Origin: a virus
Length of the DNA stretch: 25,871 bases
Direction: 5' to 3' (one strand)
Virus record (IMG/VR): IMGVR_UViG_3300042914_001327
Coordinates: 1 to 25,871 of that record
A program made the position numbers and the translations under genes. Shown in pieces: positions 821-25,846 of this stretch; position 1 is the stretch's first letter; each line of letters begins with the position of its first letter. Below the pieces are notes generated by a model that was given only the letters and a program-made list of their open reading frames with translations, was not told where the DNA came from and searched no databases.

Positions 821-3271
821 TTACACCACCGCGATAATAAACCACTTTGACCCGTTGCTTTGAATAGTCTTAGATTCGTACTTGCTGCCTAGCGTAGTGG
901 TTGCCCCGTCGTTTATCAAAAAAGTTCCAGCGTTAATAGTTACGGTGTGATTGGACGCTGTTTTAATAAAACTATACTTCTTTCCCATGCTTTCATTTGC
1001 CGCTGGAAGATTGACCGTGATATTGCCGTCTGTGGTGTCGCAAGTTATAAGTTCGTAACCGTTATTAAGCGTATGCGTTCCAGTCGTATAGTTTAGCGGC
1101 GCGCCGTGTTCCTGTAAATGATATTTAATTTCTTCGGTAGTGTTGTCATACTGCAACATCATTTCCCACCGCTTGTTTAACGTCGGCTGCGATGTTGGTG
1201 CTCCGTCTGCATCGTTAACTAAATACTCTAGCATTGTAGACGGTAGCATGGAAATCATGGATTGATAGTTGTTAACTTGCGTTTCAATCAGGTTAACGCG
1301 ATCGCGTAAAATATCGCCTTGCGTACTTGCAATACGCAAACCCTCGCCCGTGGTTGTGGTGTTCGTGTAAACAGGTGTAACTGCCAACCATTCGCCCTCC
1401 CAGATATCGAGTCGCGGATTGAAACTAACCCCATTTAATACCCATGTGTAGGAATCGAAGTACAACGATTTAACCAAATCCAAACTACCTGAATCAATCC
1501 AACTGCCACGAATGACCTGTAAAAAATCAGCGTACAAAGACGATAACCCAACGCCTAACATTTTGGTCGGCGTGCCTTTGGTTATTGAATCCCAACCACC
1601 GTAGAACTCATTAGCTATTACCCATTGAGTACCATCGTTTGCCCATATATTCCCAACGCCGTATTTGTTTCCAGAATAGTAATATTTTGGCTTTAATTGC
1701 ACCTTAGTTGAGTTTACCGAATTGGTCGTTCTCGGTGTAAAATCCTCGGAAATATCCCATACAAAATCAGGGTTTTGATAGTCCGAAGATTCCGCAAAAG
1801 CCACTTGAATGCTGCCCCAATAACTTACGTCGAACACGGCGGGTGTACTCCATTTAGGTGCTTGATTTGCAGGACGCAACAACTTGGGTAGATTGTTCTG
1901 ATAGAGCAATTGAGTTATGGATTGAACGCTATCAATCTTAACCTTTAGAATATTGTAACCTGCAGGCGGTGTTGTGCATTGCTTTTCGAACTTGTAAGTT
2001 ATCCAATTGCCCTGCAAATTGGCTATGTCCACTTTTTCAACGCCCTTGGGTACTGTCGTTGCCGTAATCCAATAACCGTCTGAATCTAAAATCTTAATTC
2101 CACCGCTTCCATTTTCAAGCCATATCATCAGCTTGTATTCGTAACTCACACGGGAATTAGAAACACTTGCGGGGAAATTCGACTTTACAACCACCTTTAC
2201 TTTCAACGGGTGTTCGTCTGGCGTGCTTCCCGTAGGAATGTCGGTTGCGATTAATTCCAGCGCGGTTGTAGTTCGATTTGGGCGCGTTCTAATTATCGAA
2301 GCGGTGTTAATGCGCTCCGTATCAATCGTCAATAACTTAAATGCAGGTTGATAGGTTAACGTTGGTTTTGCCTGCCATTGTGGCCGATTTGGTAGTGTCC
2401 CTAATGCTTGCCTATGACTGTAGGCTCCCGTGCCTTGATAACCAAGTGTATAGTTGTAACGTCTGTATGGGATTGTGGAACCACTGTAAGCCGCAACATC
2501 AGTAAGCCAATATCCGCCGTTGGCGTGCATAAATCGCGTGTTGAATATCTCGCAAACCTGCTCTAGTGCTTGACGGCAATTCACCATGTTTAAGTCATAG
2601 TACCAATTAGCCGCTAGGTCGATTGCCTTAACGTCTTGAAATGGGTCATAATCCTCTAGGAATGTATTGATATTTAAGCGCAGCATATCCACCCCTTTAC
2701 GAAATCCGTCGGCCGCGTACGTAGATTGCGCGTCGAAGAAGTAGTAATCCGTTTTGCCTAGGTATGGCCAATATTCATGCAATTCCAATTCCTGCAAGCA
2801 CTCGCGAAATAGTACGTTAACTTGAATGTAACCATCGCTAAACCAACTTGCTTTCACATTGTACCCATCCAGCAATTCCAGCCCGTCCACAGCCGTCAAT
2901 TGTATTATTGGTTTGCTGTCTATTCCCTCGCGAAGTCGCTGCATTTGGTCGGCTAATATTCGACCGACAAAAAACAAATCACTGCCTCGCCAAACGACCA
3001 TCGTCCAGTAGGTTTCGGCTTGCGTTTGGATTGCCAAAAACGCATCCATAACCGTCTGATTCGGAATTACAAAGTTTGCAGTTACTCTGCTGGACTTAAT
3101 GCGGTTTTCGTGCCACTTGCTACCCTCGCCCTCGCGGTCTAGCGTGAACCCCTCGCCCGCTAACTTTAGCTCTGTTCCTGTTGTCGCGCTGCCTGTTGGC
3201 GCATCGTGTATCTCCACTTTCCAAGTGGTATTATTGAAGCTCTTAAATTCTCCGTAGTATTTGCGTGCCAT
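821..3271 (-). CDS. Large tail-tip / baseplate-type tail protein (816 aa)
   Basis: This 816-aa protein directly follows the tape measure gene; its ATG overlaps the tape measure stop (TAATG). This is the usual place of the distal-tail/tail-associated (Dit/Tal-like) proteins of siphophages. The N-terminal 150 residues (MARKYYGEFKS..., then RVTANFVIP, ETYWTMVVWR, LTAVDGLELLDGYN) resemble the beta-rich start of tail-tip proteins in Bacteroidota phages. The last about 80 residues (THTLNNGYELITCDTTDGNITVNLPAA and on to FIIAVV) look like a beta appendage domain common at the C-terminus of phage fibres. No peptidase motif is visible. A role in the tail tip and host contact is a confident inference; precise homology to Dit or Tal is not shown. 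Confidence 0.75.
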   Translation of the reverse strand: MARKYYGEFKSFNNTTWKVEIHDAPTGSATTGTELKLAGEGFTLDREGEGSKWHENRIKSSRVTANFVIPNQTVMDAFLAIQTQAETYWTMVVWRGSDLFFVGRILADQMQRLREGIDSKPIIQLTAVDGLELLDGYNVKASWFSDGYIQVNVLFRECLQELELHEYWPYLGKTDYYFFDAQSTYAADGFRKGVDMLRLNINTFLEDYDPFQDVKAIDLAANWYYDLNMVNCRQALEQVCEIFNTRFMHANGGYWLTDVAAYSGSTIPYRRYNYTLGYQGTGAYSHRQALGTLPNRPQWQAKPTLTYQPAFKLLTIDTERINTASIIRTRPNRTTTALELIATDIPTGSTPDEHPLKVKVVVKSNFPASVSNSRVSYEYKLMIWLENGSGGIKILDSDGYWITATTVPKGVEKVDIANLQGNWITYKFEKQCTTPPAGYNILKVKIDSVQSITQLLYQNNLPKLLRPANQAPKWSTPAVFDVSYWGSIQVAFAESSDYQNPDFVWDISEDFTPRTTNSVNSTKVQLKPKYYYSGNKYGVGNIWANDGTQWVIANEFYGGWDSITKGTPTKMLGVGLSSLYADFLQVIRGSWIDSGSLDLVKSLYFDSYTWVLNGVSFNPRLDIWEGEWLAVTPVYTNTTTTGEGLRIASTQGDILRDRVNLIETQVNNYQSMISMLPSTMLEYLVNDADGAPTSQPTLNKRWEMMLQYDNTTEEIKYHLQEHGAPLNYTTGTHTLNNGYELITCDTTDGNITVNLPAANESMGKKYSFIKTASNHTVTINAGTFLINDGATTTLGSKYESKTIQSNGSKWFIIAVV

Positions 3272-5520
3272 TATCCCCTAGAATAGTCGTTGTTGTGTTT
3301 CTGTAAAATTATAGCCAAATCGCGGCCGCTTATATGGGTAGTTGCTATGTAACCGCCATCGTTGCCGCCGCTTCCAATAATATCTTTCAATTTGTTTAAT
3401 GGTGCAATAACCTCGGGATTGCTACGCGCTCCGGGATATTCACCCATTAATCCCAATGTAGGTCCGTAAACAATACCCCCGTCGGCGAATTTTTGTGTGG
3501 CTATTTTGGAAACGTTTGCCAAACCTGCGGCAACTGCTGCACCTGCGGCAACGCCACCTCGAACGGGCGACGATGGGTCTGGCACTGGCATAAATTGCGA
3601 TTGGTACGCTAACTGCGCACTAAAATAAGTTGATATTAACGCTTGGGCTAAACTCAATGCCTTTGCACGTTTTGCCTGTTTCCTCGCCGCTTCATCCCCT
3701 TTGCCAACAATGGCATCGTTAAACGCTATCACTGCTTGACTGTATTGCGCAAACATATCCGCTTGAAATTGCAATTGCCTCATACGGCTTTCATTTGCTT
3801 TTTGTTCGTCGGTTTTGCGGAAACTTTCCTTAATCGCGTTTTCGGCGGCTGCTTGGGCTTGCACCAATGCCAAGGTATCTTTACCCGCTTTTTTTGCATC
3901 CTCAATTAACTTGGTATAATGCGAAGTAGTTTCAGCCAATTCCAGGGCGCGTTTTTGGTCTTGCGTTACCGCTGTGGCTTTTGCTATATCGGTTTCCAAT
4001 TGTAGCAAATCTTTGGCGCGTTGTTCCGCGTCTCGTTTTTCTTTTTCTTCGGCGGCGGATTTTTTGTTGTTGTAATCGGTTCTAACCTTATCCAGTGCCG
4101 CGTTTCTTAATTTGTTAATTTCAATTTCGGTATATCCCTGCTCTTTTAATTGCTTAACTTTTGTTGCAAATGCTGCATCTTCGGCTTTGACCAAAGCTTC
4201 AAGCGTACCGTCATTAATAGCTAATAGCGCAGCTTGACGGTCAAGTGTGTAGTCAACAACTTTTTTTGTTTCATTTTCTTTTTTCTTACCGCTATCCACT
4301 ACAGCGTCGGCGCTTAATTTCTCCGCGGATATTAAATCCGTAATCGCTGCAATCTGTTTGTCTATGCCATCAATCTGCGTTTTCGTAGCTTTGGCGTTCG
4401 TCTTTGCAGTCTCTTCGACTTGCCTTGCATATAAGCCAGCCCCTGCTGCGAATAAATCTGCTGACTTTTTTTGTGCCGCTTCTAAGTCTTTAGTTTGCTT
4501 TAATTCAAGTTCAAATTTTTTCGCGCTTAGTTCTGCAATTTTATCATAGGCTGCTTTTGCCTTGGCGTTCTTAATTATCTCCGTAGTTAAATTAGCAGTG
4601 GCTTGCTTTAATTCGTAAGCCCCTACTTTTTCCAACTTTTGATTTGCTAAAAAATTAGGATATATTTCCTGAATCTGTTTAAGCGCGTCGCGCCGTGTTG
4701 ACATTTTTTGTGTCAAGTCGCCAACAACTGCAATCAGAGGTCCTATATTTTTATACTCTTCTTTAAAATTGTCGCTTGCATTTTTTGCAACATCAATCAG
4801 AGGCCGCTGTGCTTGCGCTGCTTTTTCGGCTGCCTCTCTCATTGAGCGCATTTTTTCTACAAGCATAGCAATTCCAACAATAGCCGCGCCTACTCCCGTA
4901 GCTAATAAAGCCGCTTTCATTCCTGTTAGCCCTCTAATTGACATCATAATGGTGCTGTTGTATGCATCTTGTATGGCTTTGGTTACTCCTATTCTTACGG
5001 CTGATTCAGCTTGCAATGCATTTTGTATTTCCTGCAATGAGCTAAGCACTAGCATAGTGCCTTGTAACTTAACCATTGTTTTTTGAAGGTCTTCGTATTC
5101 AATCCCAAGTGCAGCCATTGAACCCTCTACAACCCCAAAGCCTGCCGCTAGTGCCTGCGCTCCACCTATTGCGGCATCAAGTCGCCTTGTATCACTAGCA
5201 AAATACCCAATCTCCGCACGGGTATCGCCAATTTCGTCCTGCATCCTACCCGCTTCACGAATAAATTGGTTTGCCATGTCGGCAAATGCAGGACCCATCG
5301 CACGGGCTTCCATAGCCATAGTTTGCAATTGCCTAACTACTCGCGCGGTCGGCTTAGATTTTGCAAGCGCATCAAGTCGTTTTTGTATGTCTTTTGCAGC
5401 TTCGGCAACCTCCGTGGACATTTTCTGTCCCGATTGTTGCATCATAACCACGGCGTCGTCAAAGCCTTTTTTTAAGGCTGTAATATCCGCTCCAATTGCT
5501 ACGTTTAATTTGTTTGCCAT
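3271..5520 (-). CDS. Tail tape measure protein
   Basis: The tape measure fixes tail length and is ejected with the DNA. The 749-aa protein is Lys/Ala/Glu-rich and largely helical with long coiled coils (about residues 20-130 and 360-600). A hydrophobic stretch lies near residues 195-225 (AALLATGVGAAIVGIAMLV). The C-terminus is typical: QAKRAKALSLAQALISTYFS, an Ala/Gly-rich segment, then FADGGIVYGPTLGLMGE and NPEVIAPLNKL. This pattern is found in many siphophage tape measures. The gene lies between the tail terminator-like gene and the tail-tip gene, in the expected order. Start ATG is 2 bases after the previous stop. The short length predicts a relatively short tail. Confidence 0.93.
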   Translation of the reverse strand: MANKLNVAIGADITALKKGFDDAVVMMQQSGQKMSTEVAEAAKDIQKRLDALAKSKPTARVVRQLQTMAMEARAMGPAFADMANQFIREAGRMQDEIGDTRAEIGYFASDTRRLDAAIGGAQALAAGFGVVEGSMAALGIEYEDLQKTMVKLQGTMLVLSSLQEIQNALQAESAVRIGVTKAIQDAYNSTIMMSIRGLTGMKAALLATGVGAAIVGIAMLVEKMRSMREAAEKAAQAQRPLIDVAKNASDNFKEEYKNIGPLIAVVGDLTQKMSTRRDALKQIQEIYPNFLANQKLEKVGAYELKQATANLTTEIIKNAKAKAAYDKIAELSAKKFELELKQTKDLEAAQKKSADLFAAGAGLYARQVEETAKTNAKATKTQIDGIDKQIAAITDLISAEKLSADAVVDSGKKKENETKKVVDYTLDRQAALLAINDGTLEALVKAEDAAFATKVKQLKEQGYTEIEINKLRNAALDKVRTDYNNKKSAAEEKEKRDAEQRAKDLLQLETDIAKATAVTQDQKRALELAETTSHYTKLIEDAKKAGKDTLALVQAQAAAENAIKESFRKTDEQKANESRMRQLQFQADMFAQYSQAVIAFNDAIVGKGDEAARKQAKRAKALSLAQALISTYFSAQLAYQSQFMPVPDPSSPVRGGVAAGAAVAAGLANVSKIATQKFADGGIVYGPTLGLMGEYPGARSNPEVIAPLNKLKDIIGSGGNDGGYIATTHISGRDLAIILQKHNNDYSRG

Positions 5521-5522
5521 TT

Positions 5523-5963
5523 TTAAGTTGGTTTTACTCGATTGTATCCAATAATGTAATCTTGCGCCACTTGGTAAACTCCAGCAAAGTCGGCTTCATC
5601 GTCCGACATTTGTACTTCACCATCATAGAAAATCTGATTTACCTTGAATGTTGATATGGTTGCGGGAAGTGCAGCGGCTTTTAATTCCATTGCAGCCCTT
5701 ACAAGTAAGGCAATACTATTTGCTTTTTCAAATCCACTCACGCCTCCAGCATCAGCCGCAAAAATTGACACTTGCACGCGGATAAAATCCAGTGTACTGA
5801 TTTGGTCTTTGGTATTCATGGGAGTTACGCTCACTTGGTGGTATGCGATTGCAGGAAAGTTCGTGCCGTGTAGAATCCGCAAAGGGAATATCTTATTACT
5901 TACCTCCGTGGTTAACGGGCTGTAATTGCTTAAGATATTGTAAATTACATTAGTAATTGCCAT
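5523..5963 (-). CDS. Tail terminator/completion protein, DUF3168-like (146 aa)
   Basis: The likely start is the ATG at 5963 (MAITNVIYNIL...), ten bases after the preceding stop. A longer frame from 6005 would add 14 residues but overlap the upstream gene by 32 bases. The pattern MAITNVIYNILSNYSPL, then KIFPLRI, FPAIAYHQVS, and later DFIRVQVSIFA...ANSIALLVRAAMEL, matches the layout of DUF3168 tail completion proteins (HK97 gp10/SPP1 gp17-type neck or tail terminators). These proteins cap the tail tube and join it to the head. Its place is unusual: it lies after the tail chaperone and right before the tape measure, whereas terminators usually precede the tube gene. Confidence 0.65.
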   Translation of the reverse strand: MAITNVIYNILSNYSPLTTEVSNKIFPLRILHGTNFPAIAYHQVSVTPMNTKDQISTLDFIRVQVSIFAADAGGVSGFEKANSIALLVRAAMELKAAALPATISTFKVNQIFYDGEVQMSDDEADFAGVYQVAQDYIIGYNRVKPT

Positions 5964-5973
5964 GAATGCAAAT

Positions 5974-6300
5974 TTAAGCCTCGGCAGGTGGTACAATGTT
6001 GCCAAATGAAGCGATTTTTAACGGGCGTTTAAAATCAAACGCATCATTGGGAATAGTCTTTGGTAACGCCTTGGAAACCTCATCCCAATCAACAATATTA
6101 GATTTATCCCAATCAAACCGTATAAAATCAGTTTCTCGAAGTTGCCGTTTGGTTTGGCTTTGCACTAAGGCGTAAACCTGCCATCTAGCGCGTTCCCAAT
6201 CATTTTGGTATTGCCTCTTTTGCGCTTTTCGCATGCCGTGCAAGCGGTGCATAAAATAGTCGGGGGTGAACCTGCCAAATTCCGATTCGCTTGCCCCCAT
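5974..6300 (-). CDS. Tail assembly chaperone T-like domain, expressed by -1 frameshift
   Basis: Seen alone this is a 108-aa frame from ATG 6300. The same frame is open upstream, without a stop, to the slippery site at 6366-6372 inside the preceding chaperone gene. The 22 residues before the ATG read ANSQSRGAILTWRQLKRIAYGE and join smoothly to MGASESEFGRFTPDYFMHRLHG. The stretch ILTWRQLKRIAYGEMGxSExEFGRFTPDYF is the conserved core of phage tail assembly chaperone second domains (lambda T, rcc01693-like). The core straddles the ATG, so initiation at 6300 would give a truncated domain. The functional product is therefore probably a 254-aa G-T fusion that recruits tube subunits to the tape measure. 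Confidence 0.8.
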   Translation of the reverse strand: MGASESEFGRFTPDYFMHRLHGMRKAQKRQYQNDWERARWQVYALVQSQTKRQLRETDFIRFDWDKSNIVDWDEVSKALPKTIPNDAFDFKRPLKIASFGNIVPPAEA

Positions 6301-6335
6301 CTCTCCGTAGGCTATGCGCTTTAATTGCCGCCAAG

Positions 6336-6737
6336 TTAAGATTGCGCCTCTTGACTGGCTATTGGCTTTTTTTCTTCAGGCGTATTTTCGTCATCGTCTG
6401 AATGGTTGAAGCCTGTATAAGCGATAACAAATTCGGTAAATGCTCCAAGTATTTCATGGGCTTTCCTGATTTTGCGCCCTAATTCGCGGACTTGGTAAAA
6501 CGGTTTTTGTTTTTCCGGGTAAATATCAGCATATTCGTTAATCCCGTGGAATGCGCAAATCAATGCCATGTCCATAACCTTGGAGAGTTTAACTGCGTCC
6601 ATATTGGTAATGTCCAAATGCTGGCCAATATTCTCAAAGTCCAAATTCAAATCGGACATAATCGCCTGAATGGAATTGAAATTAAATTCCATGTGGTAAG
6701 TGGTGCCGCCTAATACAATTGTCGGGTGTGGTTTCAT
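6336..6737 (-). CDS. Tail assembly chaperone G-like protein
   Basis: This 133-aa protein begins KPHPTIVLGGTTYHMEFNFNSIQAIMSDL. It has the form of siphophage tail assembly chaperones: an N-terminal beta pair followed by helices, and a polar, acidic C-terminus (SDDDENTPEEKKPIASQEAQS). It lies between the major tail gene and the tape measure, where lambda G and its relatives sit. The 0-frame stop is nine codons after a canonical A AAA AAG slippery heptamer; a -1 shift there makes the longer G-T form. A promoter-like TATCTTCG box lies five bases before the ATG and a terminator upstream of it. The unshifted form should be the abundant one, as in lambda. Confidence 0.85.
   Translation of the reverse strand: MKPHPTIVLGGTTYHMEFNFNSIQAIMSDLNLDFENIGQHLDITNMDAVKLSKVMDMALICAFHGINEYADIYPEKQKPFYQVRELGRKIRKAHEILGAFTEFVIAYTGFNHSDDDENTPEEKKPIASQEAQS
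6366..6372 (-). promoter_or_regulatory. Programmed -1 ribosomal frameshift slippery site (A AAA AAG)
   Basis: On the minus strand the 0-frame codons GAA AAA AAG give the exact A AAA AAG heptamer used in dnaX and in many phage G-T genes. After the shift, reading resumes at GCC and stays open through 22 codons into the frame annotated at 5974-6300. No strong downstream pseudoknot was worked out by eye. Confidence 0.8.
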
Positions 6738-6874: not shown

Positions 6875-7309
6875 TTAGAAAGTTCCAAAAGTAACGGCGC
6901 CTGTAATTTGCAATGAGCAAGTAAAAGAAGCTGCATCGTTCTGTGGTGCGGACAATTCCAAGTTGGACACGTAAACCTCCGCGGACGTTTTCACATCCCC
7001 CGTTACGTTTGAACCCCAAACAGCTAACAAGGTAGTTCCTGCCACTAGTTTATCCATTAAATCTTTGAAGGAATACGCTCCACTTCCGACGCTTCCATCT
7101 TCCTCAAAACGACCATCAACGGAAATAGTGCCGCCCTTTTCGCCTGCCAAAAACTCTTTCCAGCCTGCTGAATCTTTAGTTGTAACCTCGATCATGTCGG
7201 AGGCTAGAGATAATGAGTGTGAAGTAGCATTCGCAACCTTGGTCAAAGTGCCGCTAATGTCTGCATATAGTCCAATAATAGTACCGTTTACAATTCCTGT
7301 TGTAGCCAT
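6875..7309 (-). CDS. Major tail (tube) protein
   Basis: The tube protein polymerises into the tail shaft. The 144-aa product matches the short major tail proteins of the TP901-1/Phage_tail_2 kind: an N-terminal beta pair (GTIIGLYADISGTLTKVANA), the SLASDMIEVTTKDSAGWKEFLAGEKGGTISVDGRFEEDG region with the conserved DxIEVTTKDSxGWKE pattern, and a C-terminal beta segment ending CSLQITGAVTFGTF. A TAAATTTG box ends four bases before the ATG and a terminator follows the gene, so it can be made as a short, abundant transcript of its own. The neighbours (gp10-like protein upstream, chaperone downstream) are as expected. Confidence 0.9.
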   Translation of the reverse strand: MATTGIVNGTIIGLYADISGTLTKVANATSHSLSLASDMIEVTTKDSAGWKEFLAGEKGGTISVDGRFEEDGSVGSGAYSFKDLMDKLVAGTTLLAVWGSNVTGDVKTSAEVYVSNLELSAPQNDAASFTCSLQITGAVTFGTF

Positions 7310-15976: not shown

Positions 15977-16185
15977 CAATCCAAGACTTGCGCATCGGCG
16001 AATCAGATTTCATTGCAAACGGCGTACATTTTCGCATATTGGCCGCAAATAGTAACTGGGAATATACCGTGTTAAACGTGGCTACTAAAGCGCGTAAAGA
16101 GGGCGTGCGTTTGCTTGGCGTACAGATAGAACGTTATACCGGTAAAAATACGTTGCATAGGGAGTTGGTTAAGGCTGTGCGTTAA
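15973..16185 (+). CDS. Hypothetical protein coupled to VRR-NUC (70 aa)
   Basis: I do not recognise it. The 70-aa basic protein (MTIQDLRIGESDFIANGVHFRILAA...) looks like a small beta-rich domain with a basic C-terminal helix (TLHRELVKAVR). Its start overlaps the VRR-NUC stop (ATGA), a strong sign of coupled translation. Its end overlaps the end of the convergent primase-helicase gene by 17 bp. A DNA- or RNA-binding partner of the nuclease is a guess. Confidence 0.65.
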   Translation: MTIQDLRIGESDFIANGVHFRILAANSNWEYTVLNVATKARKEGVRLLGVQIERYTGKNTLHRELVKAVR

Positions 16186-18487
16186 GTAGCTTCAAATAGT
16201 AACCGCCTCGATCACGGTCAACGTGCCACTCTCTCGCATCGTTCTTAATAAATAACCCAATCCAAGACCCCCACTTTTTATTGGTCAACTTGCTATATTC
16301 TTTATGAGTTTGCTGGAACACTTCCAATAAGGCTTTATAGTAAATTGCGCCAAACGTGTCAAACTGATAATCCTCCATAAATTCCACGAACTCGCTGCAC
16401 GTTTCCTGAATATAGCGTTTACGGCTTGCATTTTCCAACGGAGCCGCAACCAATCCACTTTCTAAATAGTTTTGGAGATTGAACACCATAAAGTTATCAA
16501 ATCGGTTCCAGTCGGCCTCGTTCCAATCGTCAAACAACAACCGCCCGTATTGTTGTATCGGGGTTCGTTTTGCGTTGAAATACTGGAAAAACTCTATTTC
16601 GTGCCGTCTACGTTCGTGGCTGTGCCCAGTGCCTTTGATGATATAATTTGTCGTTATCAGTATCTTCGGACTTCGCTCAAACGGGATAAATATTTCATCT
16701 TTGTTTTTTCGGTTCACCGTTACTCCCTCCGTAATCAATGGGAATAAATCCTCAAAATTAAAGTTCCTGCGAACGTCATCAAATGCCAACACTTGACTAT
16801 CAATACTAACACGCTGATAAACAAAATCGCCTTTGTTATCGTATTTTTTGCCATCAATAACAACCACATTTTTAAAGGCTTTCAACGCATTAATCATAAT
16901 TGACTTACCGCTTCCGCCATTCGGGTTATCGTCAATTTCCTGATCATTGAATATTATCGCTTTTTGATGCGTTTTGTCCTTATACGAATGTATCAAATAC
17001 CCCAGCGCGGTGCTAAGCGCATTCATGCGAAGAGCGTCACCATCGCAAACACGGTGACATAAATCCGCAAAATCATTATCAATAGCTTCGGTTTGCTTCC
17101 AATTCCGCTGAATTATCTGACGCTCCCAGATAAAGCCATTAATATCAATGTAGCTGATTAATTGCGTATTGTTTTTGCTGATTTTCAAAACGCCATTCAG
17201 GAAGGGAATAAAGGCCGTGTCTTTAGTATCCTGCAAAATTTTAACGTCGATTGATTTGAGCAAAGTCAAAAACTGGTCGGTAAACATCGAACTATTTTTT
17301 GAGCAATAATTAAACACGTTGGGTTCCTTTTCTTCCAAATAGTCCAATATGTATTCCTTAATCAACGCCGCCGAACTGAACGACAAAATGTTCGATTTAA
17401 CTTTTACAAAGGTCGGAATTAACGCCCCTTCCGGGAAGTACTTAAAAAATCCTGAATCTTCCAAAAACCGCTTAAATTTTAGGCTATCAATTGAAATCTT
17501 GCCTTTGTTGTCAATCGCCCAAAATATATCGTTTGTAGTGTTGCCCATTATTTCGGCCAATACTTCGTCGGTGATATTGTACTTCGCTTTAATTTCGTCC
17601 GTCGGCTGTTTGCTTTTTAAGGCTGAAACAACCAATTTTCGCCTACGGTCATCCTCAAAATACTTGCTTTGAAAATTGCCACGGGAATATGCCGAACGAA
17701 CAACCTGCAATAATTCAGCATCGCTAAAGTCGTCGTTAATTATGTAGGCTTTTGTGAAGTCAAAACAATAGTCCTGATTCACCCCGTAATCGCAACACGA
17801 AATGGCAAATTTGTAAATGCTATCGTTTCGATTCCCCTTGGAATAAGGAAACTTTTTATCCAGCCATTTAAGCAATCGTTCGCAATTTACCCCGTCATCA
17901 GTGATAGGGATTTGCGCGGGTCGTTCCGAATATCTGTATCCGTCGTCGCTATCGTATCCCTCAAACGGTACAGCATCCCAATTGACGTATAAATCAGGGT
18001 CGTAGGAAACAAAACACAATCGGCTAATATTGCTATTTTTCGTATCAAAATACGGGTTGTTTACGTATTCGCCGTATGCCTTAAATCGCTTTCGGTAATC
18101 GTCTTTGCTCGACTTCGGTATGCTCACAACCGCCTTGATTCCATCGCCCGAAGGTGAACGAAATAACATTACCGTATGTTTATCGTTTTTAAGCCAATCC
18201 CAAATGACTTGGTAATCTTCATCGGGCAGATGGTCGTAGTCGGTAATCATTAGCCCCGAGGCTTCCTGTATATCGTTGTCGTTACGGTTTACCGCTACGC
18301 CTCCAAATAAGACCGCGTGAAGCTTCTTTTTGGCTTCGTCATATTCAGCTTTAGGAAGTGTCCTAATATGCTCAATTTCGGCCTTATATGAATTTTTAAG
18401 GCGTTGCGCAACTTCTTCCAAGGTAAGGTCAAACGCCTTTGTAGTTCCAATTACGCCAGCAAAAACGGAAATTTTAGTTTGTTTCAT
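16169..18487 (-). CDS. Primase-helicase: VirE/BT4734-type N-domain with SF3-like helicase
   Basis: The 772-aa protein probably primes and unwinds DNA at the phage fork. The N-terminal part (about 1-180) is of the BT4734/VirE-N type, a primase-like fold, with a DxD-like LMITDYDHL (79-87), SPSGDGIKAVVSI (111-123) and SRLCFVSYDPDLYVN (155-169). Residues 205-270 resemble a PriCT-type helical segment. The C-terminal ATPase shows Walker A NPNGGSGKS (521-529), Walker B VLAFDDV (567-572), a sensor PKILITTNY (607-615) and an Arg-rich ERRRHEIEF (625-633), as in phage SF3/DUF5906 helicases. Upstream lies the 372-bp control region with iterons and a promoter box. Very good confidence for the helicase half, good for the primase half. 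Confidence 0.9.
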   Translation of the reverse strand: MKQTKISVFAGVIGTTKAFDLTLEEVAQRLKNSYKAEIEHIRTLPKAEYDEAKKKLHAVLFGGVAVNRNDNDIQEASGLMITDYDHLPDEDYQVIWDWLKNDKHTVMLFRSPSGDGIKAVVSIPKSSKDDYRKRFKAYGEYVNNPYFDTKNSNISRLCFVSYDPDLYVNWDAVPFEGYDSDDGYRYSERPAQIPITDDGVNCERLLKWLDKKFPYSKGNRNDSIYKFAISCCDYGVNQDYCFDFTKAYIINDDFSDAELLQVVRSAYSRGNFQSKYFEDDRRRKLVVSALKSKQPTDEIKAKYNITDEVLAEIMGNTTNDIFWAIDNKGKISIDSLKFKRFLEDSGFFKYFPEGALIPTFVKVKSNILSFSSAALIKEYILDYLEEKEPNVFNYCSKNSSMFTDQFLTLLKSIDVKILQDTKDTAFIPFLNGVLKISKNNTQLISYIDINGFIWERQIIQRNWKQTEAIDNDFADLCHRVCDGDALRMNALSTALGYLIHSYKDKTHQKAIIFNDQEIDDNPNGGSGKSIMINALKAFKNVVVIDGKKYDNKGDFVYQRVSIDSQVLAFDDVRRNFNFEDLFPLITEGVTVNRKNKDEIFIPFERSPKILITTNYIIKGTGHSHERRRHEIEFFQYFNAKRTPIQQYGRLLFDDWNEADWNRFDNFMVFNLQNYLESGLVAAPLENASRKRYIQETCSEFVEFMEDYQFDTFGAIYYKALLEVFQQTHKEYSKLTNKKWGSWIGLFIKNDAREWHVDRDRGGYYLKLLNAQP

Positions 18488-24965: not shown

Positions 24966-25220
24966 ATGAGCAATAAAAAAGAACAAACGACAGTTGAGTG
25001 GTACACACATAGGCTGTATGAAATTGAAATAGCATATAACCAAGGTGTAATTGATACCGAGGTTTATGCCAAATCAAAGACGCACGCATTAGAACAAGCC
25101 AAAGAAATGGAGAAAGAAAAAATGACTAAAGCGTGGAAAGCAGGGGATGGGCAACACGATAAAGTTGCAGATAAATTAGCAGAACAATGGTACGAACAAA
25201 CCTACGGAGGTAACAAATGA
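24966..25220 (+). CDS. Small charged hypothetical protein (84 aa), duplicated downstream
   Basis: The 84-aa helical protein (MSNKKEQTTVEWYTHRLYEIEIAYNQGVIDTEVYAKSKTHALEQAKEMEKEKMTKAW...) belongs to a kind of small protein seen in multiple copies in Bacteroidota phages, of unknown function. A GGGGGCAGTT sequence precedes its ATG and serves as Shine-Dalgarno. The same 18 bases (24956-24973) recur at 25833-25850 before a second copy, so the gene is tandemly duplicated around the Cys-repeat gene. Its stop overlaps that gene's ATG (ATGA). Confidence 0.8.
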   Translation: MSNKKEQTTVEWYTHRLYEIEIAYNQGVIDTEVYAKSKTHALEQAKEMEKEKMTKAWKAGDGQHDKVADKLAEQWYEQTYGGNK

Positions 25221-25846
25221 ATAAAGAAACACAACAAATTGACGGTTATTGGGTAATTGGCTCAAATAAATGGAATGCGTCCATTTACACACAAGAGCAA
25301 GCCGAGAAGTATTCAAAAACTTTAATTAATTGCCAAAACTGTATCAATTGCAGTTCTTGCAGTGATTGCAGTTTTTGCAGTGATTGCCGTTCTTGCAGTT
25401 ATTGCCGTTCTTGCAGTGATTGCCGTTTTTGTCGTTCTTGCAGTGATTGCCGTTCTTGTCGTTCTTGCAGTGATTGCCGTTTTTGCAGTTCTTGCAGTTC
25501 TTGCAGTTCTTGCAGTTCTTGCAGTTCTTGCAGTTCTTGCAGTTCTTGCAGTTCTTGCAGTGATTGCCGTTCTTGCAGTTATTGCCGTTCTTGTCGTTCT
25601 TGCAGTGATTGCAGTGATTTTAAAACAAATCCACAACGCATCACATCCTCATTTTTAGGTAGCAGAAATTCACAAACAACTTATTATTGGGATGATAAAC
25701 GCGAACAAATTATCTGCGGTTGTTTTAAAGGCACTTTAGAAGAATTTGAGGAACAAGTCAAAATAACTCACGGAGATAATGACTTTTCAAAAGGATATTT
25801 TAAATGGATTGAATTAGTTAAAATGTACAGAGGGGGGCAGTTATGA
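25217..25846 (+). CDS. Cys-triplet repeat protein (209 aa)
   Basis: Residues 39-132 contain 32 cysteines in strict xxC triplets (SSC, SDC, RSC, SYC, RFC). The flanks are non-repetitive: an N-terminal domain (GYWVIGSNKWNASIYTQEQ and on) and a C-terminal one (TTYYWDDKREQIICGCFKG, then EEFEEQVKITHGDNDF), which look like a known phage architecture of unknown function. The repeat is coded by 9-bp units, eight of them identical (25487-25558). Such a continuous CxxC ladder could bind several metal ions or form a solenoid; neither is shown. It overlaps both neighbouring genes (ATGA), so it is translated as part of the operon. Confidence 0.88.
   Translation: MNKETQQIDGYWVIGSNKWNASIYTQEQAEKYSKTLINCQNCINCSSCSDCSFCSDCRSCSYCRSCSDCRFCRSCSDCRSCRSCSDCRFCSSCSSCSSCSSCSSCSSCSSCSSCSDCRSCSYCRSCRSCSDCSDFKTNPQRITSSFLGSRNSQTTYYWDDKREQIICGCFKGTLEEFEEQVKITHGDNDFSKGYFKWIELVKMYRGGQL
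25331..25612 (+). repeat. 9-bp repeat array coding xxC triplets
   Basis: About 31 nine-base units (AGTTCTTGC and variants with GAT, TAT or TTT in the second codon, CGT in the first). Units at 25487-25558 are eight exact copies in a row. The other reading frames stay open through the array, which explains the spurious long frames on both strands. Confidence 0.95.

Follow-up and report, generated by a model that had tools for sequence, protein, structure and literature searches.

Whether two small overlapping frames on the minus strand of a 25,871-base record of an uncultured phage (IMG/VR record IMGVR_UViG_3300042914_001327, called the window here in its full length) are also expressed together, as one tail assembly chaperone, is the question raised by this locus. 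We consider it very probable, from the sequence, that ribosomal −1 slippage of the lambda G/GT type joins the first frame (G) to the second (T). AAAAAAG at minus-strand positions 6372..6366 is read as A_AAA_AAG in the 133-amino-acid (aa) gene at 6737..6336 and is followed there by nine sense codons (PIASQEAQS) and TAA. The −1 frame, which carries a TGA just upstream of the heptamer, reads ANSQSRGAILTWRQLKRIAYGE from the heptamer onward, 22 codons (6366..6301) leading to an ATG at 6300, and ends at 5974. No ATG, GTG or TTG was found in the T frame of the window between its upstream stop and position 6300. An earlier note on this DNA had described the in-phase heptamer nine codons before the chaperone stop and the 22 open codons before the ATG, both of which were confirmed by the reading frames, as well as a joined length of 254 aa, with which our recomputation agreed exactly; the predicted junction is ...TPEEKK-ANSQSR....

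In-frame A_AAA_AAG was present at 4 of the 7,647 codon positions in the predicted genes of the window and any XXXYYYZ heptamer at 45, giving chance expectations of ~0.7% and ~8%, respectively, in the 40-nucleotide (nt; ~13-codon) overlap. Because of these rates the heptamer alone is moderate evidence and only moderately surprising, and its strength lies in its position and its conservation in relatives. It is directly followed by CC, the most shift-prone 3′ dinucleotide for A_AAA_AAG in E. coli (PMC5009743).

The codons before the 6300 ATG evolve as coding sequence. Between lineages, the protein sequence of the ILTWRQLKRIAYGE segment is conserved, and changes before the ATG cluster at the third positions of T-frame codons; among 69 environmental sequences, 20 codons situated entirely beyond the G stop contained 3, 0 and 9 variable columns at codon positions 1, 2 and 3. 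The downstream frame thus appears to be translated ahead of any start codon and, since the window offers no start codon within this coding-like segment, ribosomes would enter it from G. The protein conservation and the coding-like evolution also bear out the proposal of the earlier note that these codons belong to a conserved T domain that a start at 6300 would cut off.

Relatives of the 133-aa gene from other metagenomes (100%, 95% and 74% identity) retained both the heptamer and the −1 relation. In the close relatives L012, L013 and L014/L015 the heptamer was present and the flanking proteins were intact, so that loss of the heptamer beside intact proteins, which the earlier note had named as evidence against the fusion, was looked for and not seen in L012–L015. 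A scan with the T-domain alignment, from which 80 loci were kept, reached further. One distant homologue (L016; G 32% and T ~43% identity) carries G_GGA_AAG, the heptamer of lambda, and a large environmental clade (G 36–39% identity) carries NNG GGG GAG TAA, that is, G_GGG_GAG, where all 69 sequences share GGGGGAGTAA unchanged and the preceding bases vary. A_AAA_AAG, G_GGA_AAG and G_GGG_GAG occupy the same columns of an ungapped DNA alignment. The conservation of the heptamer anticipated in related phages therefore held at 74–100% identity and gave way to other slippery heptamers in distant homologues, where the −1 site is replaced rather than lost. G_GGG_GAG is not a strict XXXYYYZ heptamer, as re-pairing from GAG to GGA requires a G:U pair; this argument has been made for the GGGGGAA of actinobacteriophages (PMC10885494), and a literature search for GGGGGAG in a frameshift and tail context returned nothing relevant. 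The site, the frames, the conserved coding before the ATG and the replacement by other slippery heptamers can each be read from the aligned sequences themselves.

The run of seven As (A7) at the junction invites the explanation that RNA polymerase slips on it, adding an A to some transcripts, and that the fusion arises in this way. T-domain relatives in Bacteroidales have A9 or A8 at the junction, and A9 is a length at which transcriptional slippage occurs (PMC5009743). However, A7 is below the usual A8–A9 threshold (PMC3711429); a run of at least 8–9 As is found in the Bacteroidales relatives but not in the window. In the two nearest other lineages the site is GGGAAAG or GGGGGAG, where the homopolymer is too short for RNA polymerase slippage. 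Since these G-containing heptamers could not serve such slippage, we favor ribosomal −1 slippage in the window and consider transcriptional slippage there improbable.

It is more improbable still that T is a separate protein begun at the 6300 ATG, perhaps translationally coupled to G, and that no fusion is made. This ATG is preceded by GGAGAG and lies 35 nt past the G stop, and L014 carries a TTG overlapping its G stop, a caveat to the argument from missing start codons; but that reading leaves the 22 upstream codons, conserved as protein and lacking a start codon in the window, outside the gene, and the alignment shows that distant homologues do not conserve the ATG. A sequencing error or a decayed gene would also give a frame break, and the junction is a homopolymer, where assemblies can err. 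Yet the same break recurs in several metagenomes, its retention by close relatives at 74–100% identity disfavors error or decay, and relatives without the A run show the same −1 relation, making this explanation scarcely credible.

Several results weigh against the prediction of a ribosomally made chaperone fusion. A hairpin, GCCA..UGGC, is predicted ~6 nt 3′ of the heptamer and near +6 in several other members, but its stability did not exceed that of shuffles (z −0.3), 14–20% of the segments compared across the region were equally stable at offsets 5–6, and RNAalifold detected no covariation; being no better than shuffles and without covariation, it was dropped as a downstream stimulator. 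No Shine-Dalgarno-like stimulator was evident upstream of the heptamer. No curated chaperone profile in Pfam or NCBIfam matched the window's own proteins significantly, and the predicted structure of G (predicted local distance difference test, pLDDT, 53) was too weak for judgement; with T at pLDDT 61, both models were too weak for a fold search. Profile searches with G gave weak matches only, none convincing. For the T domain, all 14 family members tested matched phrog_16333, a family of unknown function, and 2 of the 14 weakly matched PF09550 (Phage_TAC_6; expectation (E) value down to 0.038). The kind of profile search suggested in the earlier note thus gave no significant chaperone match for the window's proteins and a weak chaperone resemblance in two relatives. 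The tail chaperone label, a predicted one, rests on the gene neighborhood, the frameshift architecture, the relatives and the weak TAC_6 resemblance; the G/T frameshift architecture is widely conserved in long-tailed phages (PMC5009743).

Under ribosomal −1 slippage, the majority of ribosomes would end at the G stop and yield the 133-aa G-like protein, while a minority would slip back one base on A_AAA_AAG, the two lysine tRNAs re-pairing from AAA-AAG to AAA-AAA, and would read on in the T frame to give the 254-aa G-T fusion. By analogy with lambda, free G would coat the tape measure protein, to which a few G-T molecules would bring the tail tube protein. We infer the slippage, its rate and these binding roles. 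We regard the observation as correct and, as a prediction, well supported. The G/GT principle is already known from lambda and the window is a further instance, read from sequence, as the earlier note had stated and as the relatives support; the series of replaced sites is more interesting than the principle.

Compared with lambda gpG/gpGT, the window is alike in its short and fused products, as predicted here, and its distant homologue L016 shares the lambda heptamer, whereas the window itself has A_AAA_AAG instead of G_GGA_AAG, is not detectably similar to the curated G/T profiles of lambda type, and has a tail terminator gene separating T from the tape measure gene. Its heptamer is that of E. 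coli dnaX (PMC5009743), where stimulators are known on both sides of the site, upstream and downstream, and the truncated product is made at ~50%; no such stimulator is supported in the window. The GGGGGAA "fivetwo" sites of actinobacteriophage chaperones (PRFect, PMC10885494) resemble the G_GGG_GAG of the environmental relatives, not the window's site, and differ from it in heptamer and phage lineage.

Ordinary annotation was expected to split such a fusion, and it does: in GenBank, the homologues in Cellulophaga phage phi39:1 (gp19/gp20) and Bacteroides phage Bacuni_F1 are two hypothetical proteins each. phi39:1 gp19/gp20 (KC821626) has a T domain with 31% identity and the same gene order as the window, but with an A8 run and T in the +1/−2 frame as deposited; in both phages T directly precedes the tape measure gene, in contrast to the intervening terminator gene in the window. 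In phi39:1, gp14–gp18 upstream and gp21 and gp22 downstream carry virion notes from tandem mass spectrometry, while gp19 and gp20 are hypothetical and carry none, the pattern expected of chaperones absent from virions. No host genome emerged when genomes were scanned with the window-type T, and the distant relatives suggest a host in Bacteroidota. The chaperone family added by this locus is one that annotation splits in isolates of Bacteroidota phages, and a PHROG of unknown function is the sole match for its T domain.

The T family of Bacteroidales genomes and gut phages follows a small gene occupying the G position, with an A run at the junction. Validated with a purpose-built G profile, 17 distinct junctions had T at −1 and exactly nine As, the run falling in each of the three codon phases (9, 5 and 3 cases), and five further loci read by hand (L114, L116, L120, L127 and L128) agreed; order- and phylum-level samples contributed few extra junctions. 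Across 233 kb (both strands) of Bacteroidales-type loci there were 20 A9 runs, nearly all at the junction. Since, depending on its codon phase, a −1 heptamer needs just six to eight As, the constant nine suggests transcriptional slippage, which is known on A9 runs (PMC5009743); this is a lead, not a result, for the pattern was analyzed after being noticed, the longest run near each junction was the one scored, and homopolymer sequencing error may account for A8. T was at +1/−2 in the A8 loci L096, L101, L119 and phi39:1 and at −1 in L105; a predominance of +1/−2 would be expected if slippage with mixed lengths tolerates run-length mutations. Homologous dnaX genes provide a precedent for the use of either ribosomal or transcriptional slippage (PMC3711429), and no description of A9 transcriptional slippage in tail chaperones was found in the literature searched. 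Tentatively, and at somewhat less than even chance, one chaperone family may keep its fusion while switching between ribosomal −1 slippage (A_AAA_AAG, G_GGA_AAG, G_GGG_GAG; the lineage of the window and its environmental relatives) and RNA polymerase slippage (A9, Bacteroidales phages). Such a natural series, in which the recoding site, and possibly the slipping polymerase or ribosome, is swapped with the fusion retained, allows direct testing of the rules of slippery-site replacement.

Among individual Bacteroidales junctions (L096–L131, L123 and L009–L011), most have exactly nine As. The phi39:1 junction (L008, KC821626.1 2453–2470), A8 with T at +1/−2 as deposited, may stem from a homopolymer error or from a genuinely different shift. 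One genome (G009) has two near-identical junctions, A10 in L107 and A8 in L119; in L107 the two frames are joined by the run, and the upstream gene appears disrupted. Two long T frames were rejected as natural in-frame fusions, L110 since its upstream sequence is unlike real protein and L111 since T lies at −1 to its G match, which is in another frame.

G and T belong to a minus-strand siphovirus-type module of terminase, portal, HK97-type protease, capsid, tail tube (PF06199), G, T, a terminator-like gene and tape measure, with a large gene downstream of the last. They are flanked by the genes for the major tail tube and the tape measure, with the single terminator-like gene intervening before the latter.

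Table 1 Features of the predicted chaperone locus in window coordinates; (-) marks the minus strand
Feature	Position	Evidence
G-like tail assembly chaperone gene, 133 aa, zero-frame product	6336..6737 (-)	Open reading frame; after major tail tube gene PF06199; homologues
Slippery heptamer A_AAA_AAG, then CC	6366..6372 (-)	Kept in L012–L015
22 −1-frame codons, slip to first ATG (ANSQSRGAILTWRQLKRIAYGE)	6301..6366 (-)	Frames, alignment, substitution pattern
T-like domain, −1 frame, 130 residues post-shift plus stop codon	5974..6366 (-)	phrog_16333, E 9e-14; alignment
Predicted G-T fusion, 254 aa	5974..6737 (-)	Joined frames
Major tail tube protein, upstream neighbor, predicted T-domain partner	6875..7309 (-)	PF06199, E 1.8e-16
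Tape measure protein, predicted G-domain partner	3271..5520 (-)	PHROG tape-measure families, E 7.6e-06 to 1.9e-05
Tail-terminator-like gene (PF11367), between T and tape measure gene	5523-5963	

Elsewhere in the window, positions 25217-25846 encode a predicted 209-aa protein consisting mostly of tandem cysteine-rich (CxxC-like) repeats. The 772-aa protein at 16169-18487 partially matches, well under the cut-off, a CRISPR (clustered regularly interspaced short palindromic repeats)-associated primase-polymerase model (NF040562), and is probably a phage primase-helicase.
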